DNA of 64,000 nt from contig NZ_LR882982.1 in assembly GCF_904831005.1 (NCBI RefSeq), forward strand, positions 186,001 through 250,000. Direction: 5' to 3'. The notes below the pieces were generated by a model, which was not told the DNA's origin, made no database searches, and was given only the letters and a program-made list of their open reading frames with translations. This document shows positions 18,606-18,664 of the stretch, in pieces. A program made the position numbers and the translations under genes. Within the stretch, counting starts at the first letter, position 1, and each line of letters begins with the position of its first letter. The stretch comes from Microbacterium hydrocarbonoxydans (GTDB taxonomy: Bacteria > Actinomycetota > Actinomycetes > Actinomycetales > Microbacteriaceae).

Positions 18606-18664
18606 GAGACTCGATACAACTCCCGTGCACACCGGTATATGACGATCCTCACGCTTTGCCTACG
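18606..18664 (-). promoter_or_regulatory. kdp promoter with OmpR/KdpE-type direct repeats
   Basis: Read on the minus strand: unit CGTAGGCAAAG (18664-18654), unit CGTGAGGATCG (18653-18643), 23 nt, candidate -10 TTGTAT (18619-18614), 8 nt, then GTG of the leader ORF. The 11-bp phasing is what an OmpR-family dimer needs. The second unit and all distances are identical upstream of the KimA-like gene at 26600. Confidence 0.7.

Follow-up and report, generated by a model that had tools for sequence, protein, structure and literature searches.

What does it mean that two potassium uptake systems of different kinds, encoded in one stretch of Microbacterium DNA, begin with promoters that resemble each other step by step? 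In the stretch analyzed here (64 kb, hereafter the window), these systems are the kdp operon, which encodes a P-type pump together with the two-component system KdpDE, and a gene for a KimA-like permease. From the likeness of the two promoters, the original prediction suggested a local KdpE regulon covering both pump and importer. The testable parts of this suggestion held, namely the conservation of the shared box before kdp, its match to a mapped KdpE site of M. smegmatis, and its co-occurrence with KdpE, and a KdpE regulon joining Kdp and KimA is very probably real. The link to kimA is lineage-specific.

Potassium uptake genes of the window

The window belongs to a genome of 3.72 Mb, and the nearest relatives of its KimA are found in Microbacterium, where the KimA of locus L161 is 97% identical. 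All features described here lie on the minus strand. The kdp operon opens with a leader open reading frame of 27 amino acids (18522..18605; translation VLDIIYIALTLALFALVSLAAKGVERL), whose GTG start is probably leaderless. It is followed by kdpF (18436..18525; 29 amino acids, named from its small size and its place before kdpA), kdpA (16739..18436; PF03814, E = 2.1e-230, with a probable ATG start, the listed frame starting upstream), kdpB (14566..16737; a P-type ATPase with E1-E2 ATPase and hydrolase domains, called kdpB by its place), and kdpC (13832..14431; PF02669). KdpB has a TGES motif from residue 200, the serine of which would presumably correspond to S162 of E. coli KdpB. The full-length kdpD (11295..13832) encodes KdpD, Usp, DUF4118, HisKA, and HATPase domains and the Walker A motif GAAPGVGKT, with Usp scoring under the Pfam cut-off.

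The frame of kdpE (10627..11298) overlaps that of kdpD and encodes an OmpR-family response regulator with an OmpR-type receiver and a winged helix, which we propose as the binder of the box. The best-scoring NCBIfam model was KdpE (NF007820), with 225 bits against a curated cut-off of 325; we assume from its PRK name that this model was tuned on enterobacteria. The best PDB match was 4kny, which we take to be E. coli KdpE, over the full length (E = 2.4e-58). The gene is thus called KdpE because of its operon place and best match, and not by the NCBIfam cut-off.

The gene for the predicted KimA-like potassium importer (24525..26600) probably starts, leaderless, at GTG 26600-26598. We placed the start there because the ATG at 26612, which opens the listed frame (24525-26612), overlaps the -10 hexamer. 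The description of its product as a KimA-like permease was well founded: residues 19-653 match residues 5-603 of PDB 6s3k, presumably KimA of Bacillus, with E = 2.6e-115 and with the C-terminal cytosolic domain included. By this likeness, the window's KimA relative would transport potassium.

Shared architecture of the kdp and kimA promoters

Read on the minus strand, the kdp promoter (18664-18603) and the kimA promoter (26659-26598) agree in 18 of their 22 opening bases and in every spacing, just as the original prediction had claimed: in both, a 22-mer is followed by 23 nt, a hexamer, 8 nt, and GTG. At kdp, the 22-mer is a predicted KdpE box of two 11-bp units (18643..18664), and the hexamer is the -10-like TTGTAT (18614..18619), assigned by its position 23 nt after the box; hexamers resembling it occupy the equivalent place in many kdp promoters of the family. 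At kimA, the predicted main KdpE box (26638..26659) precedes the hexamer TAATGT (26609..26614), likewise taken as -10 by position. The pattern had in fact been understated, as the kimA promoter also carries a third unit, CGTAAGGGACG, over the -35 position (26627..26637) and an upstream pair (26670..26691) at an offset of exactly 32 bp from the main box. This 32-bp repeat is clear in the window's kimA promoter and weak in its kdp promoter, where the pair 32 bp before the box (18675..18696) reached only 5.1 bits.

When the kdp 22-mer was compared with the rest of the 64 kb, the kimA box came first (18/22), followed by a place that agreed in 15/22; from base composition, 0.006 matches of at least 18/22 are expected in the window. 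The tandem 11-bp structure of the box stood, but the wording of its unit as CGT(A/G)(A/G)GG needed correction and is better written CGTNAGGA. A loose pattern with two mismatches allowed gave 149 matches in the window's own genome and 155 for the reversed control, and this chance-level performance made a weight matrix necessary. A matrix trained on 60 kdp promoters, with the window's genus code excluded (its two loci removed), ranked the kimA main box first (27.5 bits) and the kdp box second (22.3 bits) in the window. Two further sites of the kimA promoter, the third unit paired with its preceding unit and the upstream pair, scored 20.1 and 18.7 bits, and the next best site in the whole window 11.5 bits. 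Control by a riboswitch was considered and set aside, as no Rfam family was found at its gathering score between positions 8000 and 30000.

Conservation of the box before kdp

In a draw of 120 genomes from the family, 62 had kdpA, and a 22-column matrix was refined on the upstream DNA of 64 family kdpA loci, with the consensus CGTNAGGANNC-CGTNAGGANNG. Sixty-two of the 64 loci passed 6 bits, a circular count given that the matrix was trained on the same loci; L141 and L142 fell below this value, and L022 (9.5 bits), L125 (14.7), and L143 (14.2) were weak. The box is also kept before kdp in all 42 loci of KimA-bearing relatives that cover the region upstream of kdpA, as a candidate KdpE box for this lineage had implied. 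The window's own kdp site (22.3 bits) is weaker than most kdp sites of the family, and 33 of 62 kdp promoters of the family have a further site above 5 bits at an upstream offset of exactly 32 bp.

The KimA locus set comprised 79 loci from genome contigs (1.586 Mb), with L237 omitted from an initial 80 because its start was cut off. Apart from forward sites at kimA or kdp, these 1.586 Mb held 12 matches above 15 bits, seven of them inverted at kimA, two directly before short kdpD genes, and three unexplained; at the same threshold, simulated sequence gave 2-4 matches and the reversed matrix none. In the family draw, a strict pattern (tally compiled by hand) occurred in 48 of 63 genomes with KdpD over the cut-off vs. 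4 of 57 others, with 8 of 120 in the reversed control. The matches in the four genomes without KdpD over the cut-off are unexplained and near the control level.

Beyond the family, we drew 149 genomes from the phylum, 23 of which had kdpA, the window's own included. Within the same order or class, the pair stands before the first-copy kdpA in 8/8 loci with 7.7-20.9 bits, the weak ones being L245, L246, and L251, near 8 bits. Among the more distant kdpA genomes of the phylum, one of 14 reached 7.7 bits (L249, 8.3 bits).

Distribution of the box before kimA

The extension of the box to kimA in relatives was borne out in part. It precedes kimA in 34 of the 79 loci, all 34 with KdpD or KdpE, and is absent from the other 45, so the link is not general; box scores leave a gap between 16.6 and 5.3 bits. 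The family draw gave a similarly mixed picture: a KimA query matched in 87 genomes, and in the 30 loci read, the box was forward in four (G000, G063, G025, G102), inverted in one (G048), and absent in 25.

A search for KdpD covered 78 of the 79 KimA genomes and found it in 63. Twenty-eight of the 34 box-bearing loci are from genomes with PF02702, and the other six (L178, L180, L181, L182, L188, L232) have kdpE and a partial kdpD near kimA, their KdpE being 75-90% identical to that of the window. Among the 45 box-less loci, 35 genomes have PF02702, one (G177) has a KdpE orthologue only, and in nine neither was found, so that 36 of the 45 have KdpD or KdpE. The nine genomes with a match to neither, their closest regulator being no more than 42% identical, are all without the kimA box (0/9). 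One of them, the metagenome-assembled G175 (L216), has kdpA with no KdpD or KdpE orthologue detected, which may reflect genome incompleteness. G177 (L218), also a metagenome-assembled genome, has its KdpE orthologue about 1 kb from a KdpA fragment and lacks both PF02702 and the kimA box. Presence of the kimA box thus predicts KdpE, but the reverse does not hold.

Exchange of the -35 element

In 78 of the 79 kimA loci, a -10 hexamer TAnnnn is followed after 8 nt by the start codon (77 GTG, 1 ATG). The finder required TA in the hexamer and allowed 6-9 nt with 8 preferred, and L235 gave no match. A TTG 16-19 bp before the hexamer occurs in only one of 34 kimA promoters with the box vs. 41 of 44 without it, and in none of 59 kdp promoters. 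We take the box to have replaced the -35 element at kimA, which argues for activation. The corresponding p of 2e-17 ignores relatedness, and because only three independent pairs exist, which puts p = 0.05 out of reach, no p is claimed. In 200 random pairings, nearly all gave the expected state in 3/3 usable independent pairs and the rest in 2/3. On the KimA tree, a quick tree with some long branches, the kimA box state changes four times.

A second type of kimA promoter was seen in L183, L184, L190, L204, L210, L212, and L222, where a direct and an inverted box face each other and the inverted one, with its 5' end at -17, lies over the -35 position (7/34 promoters).

Probable loss of the pump and retention of the regulator

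At seven loci, kdpE lies near kimA without kdpABC. In L165, the pair near kimA includes a full-length KdpD, and its genome (G125) has kdpA with another KdpD on a separate contig. The other six loci encode a KdpD with DUF4118, HisKA, and HATPase and no PF02702, with Usp retained in L188. The starts of the short KdpD were chosen by hand in L181 and L232, where the open frames run on into kimA. The kdpD and kdpE genes lie directly behind kimA in L180, L181, L188, and L232, and about 2.5 kb from kimA, with a box of their own, in L178 and L182. Whole-genome searches for kdpA, which covered 16 of the 78 genomes reached through named loci, found neither kdpA nor PF02702 for L180, L181, L182, L188, and L232. 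The KdpD of L178 (M. murale) is short, yet the species also has a full-length KdpD on record (P0023); L178 may still have the pump and is not counted as pump-less. The short-KdpD state changes three times on the KimA tree, L178 included. Among the best 120 listed relatives of the L180 KdpD, itself included, 29 are shorter than 560 amino acids with no PF02702 in their precomputed domains, some of which may have been truncated at the edges of contigs.

In E. coli, the N-terminal domain of KdpD is a serine kinase that phosphorylates the pump and inhibits it at high potassium (PMC11018627). The loss of this domain together with the pump fits such a pump-inhibiting role. G044 tells against this reading, with PF02702 (G044:C123:1679-2308) and no kdpA match, though its assembly of 190 contigs is only 90% complete. 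In the rest of the family draw, a comparison by hand showed PF02702 over the cut-off and kdpA in the same 62 genomes. A survey of the tandem serine and histidine kinases of KdpD similarly describes domain losses that track the remaining partner, KdpE or pump (PMC11018627). The survey covers species with the Kdp pump, and the N-terminal kinase domain is kept in almost all versions (PMC11018627); the short KdpDs found here differ, as in five genomes without kdpA the N-terminal domain is lost and the histidine kinase retained.

Other candidate targets of the box

Around strict matches away from kdp in the family draw, 25 stretches were fetched. Their forward targets were kimA (2), trkH (1), kup (1), an APC permease (2), an ABC ATPase-type gene (3), and a small protein (2); in G035 and G110 the match was close to kdpD genes but had no evident promoter role, and no recognized potassium gene in the forward sense was found in 12 of the 25. 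The kup target is in G087, a relative without KimA. The trkH target is in G106, which shares the window's genus code and has no KimA match, with the identical spacing of 23 nt, hexamer of 6, 8 nt, and GTG. TrkH was considered as a general KdpE target and rejected: of 35 TrkH matches, 30 loci were read, and only G106 had the box, that is, one of five close relatives of the G106 TrkH and none of 25 of another type.

In Rathayibacter and Agreia, a strong box precedes the gene for an APC permease of about 650 amino acids called an amino acid transporter (L109 in G116 and L092 in G077; 79% alike), which by its promoter is a candidate potassium importer. A profile comparison with KimA aligned 344 columns (E = 3e-4, probability 39) and is a lead only, and the predicted structure of the L109 permease was too poor to use (mean pLDDT 45.5). 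A KdpE-type box was also seen before a DrrA-type ABC transporter ATPase gene in L100 (G057), L094 (G060), and L095 (G111), the L094 frame being recognized by eye only and without any family match. L100 and L094 carry a TTCACAAA/TTTGTGAA-like palindrome in the interval from box to -10 hexamer, where the 23-nt spacing is kept. Finally, in L093 (G026) and L107 (G050), a KdpE-type box, 23 nt, and TAGACC precede a small protein for which Pfam and NCBIfam gave no match.

With some reservation because of L178 and G044, we lean toward a joint reading of these distributions, in which KdpDE is separable from the Kdp pump: it would have been wired to kimA through the -35 swap in several Microbacterium-type lineages, some of which would later have lost kdpFABC and the N-terminal kinase domain of KdpD, so that the remaining short KdpD and KdpE would serve KimA alone, while the box would label potassium importers that include trkH, kup, and the APC permease, itself taken as a potassium importer.

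Proposed mechanism and alternative explanations

The common layout of the two promoters and its conservation, the swap of the -35 element, the association of the box with KdpE, and its likeness to a published KdpE site were all observed here. We are confident that they are best explained by the tandem 22-bp repeat being a KdpE site that activates kdp and kimA at low potassium. Under low potassium, KdpD would phosphorylate KdpE, which would bind CGTNAGGANNC-CGTNAGGANNG head to tail as a dimer ending 23 bp before the -10 hexamer. Positioned beside the missing -35 element, KdpE would recruit RNA polymerase to promoters with a -10 hexamer only, and, because 32 bp amount to roughly three helical turns, the additional upstream site would lie on the same face of the DNA. 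Leaderless transcripts would start at or near the GTG start codon. In this Microbacterium lineage, one switch would then turn on the KimA-like importer as well as the Kdp pump, which is driven by ATP, kimA probably having come under KdpE by trading its own -35 element for the box. For the binding by the window's KdpE, the activation at low potassium, the signal, and the transcript start, we infer these steps from sequence.

The main competing explanation, which we consider improbable, is that KdpE binds both promoters and activates kdp but represses kimA. Windows above 12 bits in the 34 box-bearing kimA promoters lie at -91/-92 (23), -70 (9), -59/-60 (25), -48/-49 (17), and -37 (3). Those at -48/-49 in 17/34 and at -37 in 3/34 represent extra units over the kimA -35 position and would suit a repressor, and the inverted box over the -35 in 7/34 promoters could also fit repression. 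However, in the window and in 25/34 kimA promoters the main pair lies at -59/-60, the position it holds at kdp, which is an activating one in M. smegmatis (PMC5401905), and the absence of a TTG -35 from 33 of the 34 promoters would leave a repressor little to shut off. The four genomes with kdpDE directly behind kimA moreover show a layout that would suit positive feedback.

Still less likely, in our judgment, is that a different OmpR-family regulator reads the box. Several OmpR-type regulators are present in all 15 genomes searched, and tandem 11-bp sites are common in their family. The box nevertheless tracks KdpE: KdpD or KdpE accompanies 34/34 box-bearing kimA loci, and the five genomes that lack kdpA have kept kdpE and a short kdpD close to kimA. 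It also agrees with the KdpE site mapped in M. smegmatis (PMC5401905). That the likeness is due to chance or to a general promoter element of high-GC actinobacteria deserves almost no credence, for all the abundance of relaxed patterns in the window's own genome (149 vs. 155 in the reversed control), as conservation already contradicts it, matches this good are expected only 0.006 times in the window, and almost every match above 15 bits in the 1.586 Mb of KimA loci sits at a kdp, kimA, or short-kdpD promoter, with none for the reversed matrix.

Implications

Neither KdpE sites nor the control of kdp by KdpE is new. Among the matches listed, from a largely open-access literature, we found no report of KdpE control of kimA, nor of the -35 exchange or of pump-less short-KdpD/KdpE pairs. 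Activation of kdp and kimA by KdpE, as favored here, provides a candidate box for KdpE across a large group of actinobacteria, united with the M. smegmatis site, and suggests that in this lineage one sensor runs potassium uptake by both pump and symporter. The kimA promoters with and without the box represent a natural experiment on the replacement of a -35 element by an activator site, and some relatives without one uptake system seem to keep its regulator for the other system.

Comparison with known systems

Tandem sites with an 11-bp period are common in the OmpR family. The 11-bp phasing and the assignment to KdpE in the original prediction agree with the match of the box to the mapped M. 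smegmatis KdpE site and with its conservation before kdp in the family. In M. smegmatis, KdpE activates kdpFABC at low potassium and was mapped to 5'-CCGTAAAGAAACCATCAAGGCC-3' (PMC5401905). When divided into 11-bp units, the 22-bp site in the kdpF promoter (PMC5401905) reads CGTAAAGAAAC-CATCAAGGCC and matches the box described here. The minimal site aligned unit for unit with our matrix at 15.3 bits (P = 9.2e-7 per position). The main text of the M. smegmatis paper does not use the term "direct repeat" and describes no noticeable likeness to other KdpE sites (PMC5401905). The M. smegmatis kdpF gene also differs in having a 120-nt leader and a SigF-like promoter, and the available text of that paper presents no kimA target (PMC5401905).

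The kdpFABC promoter of E. coli is similar in that two direct half-sites upstream of the promoter are bound by two KdpE DNA-binding domains (PMC3264566). These half-sites are 6 bp long with 5 bp between them, which gives an 11-bp period like that of the box in our study, but they are AT-rich (TTTATA and TTTACA) and located at -72 to -50 from the transcription start (PMC3264566).

Joint control of the two uptake systems has a parallel in the c-di-AMP riboswitch of Bacillus, through which one potassium-related signal controls KimA and, in B. thuringiensis, Kdp (PMC6488665). Here, in contrast, the transcripts look leaderless, and the control that we propose would be exerted by a two-component system at transcription start.
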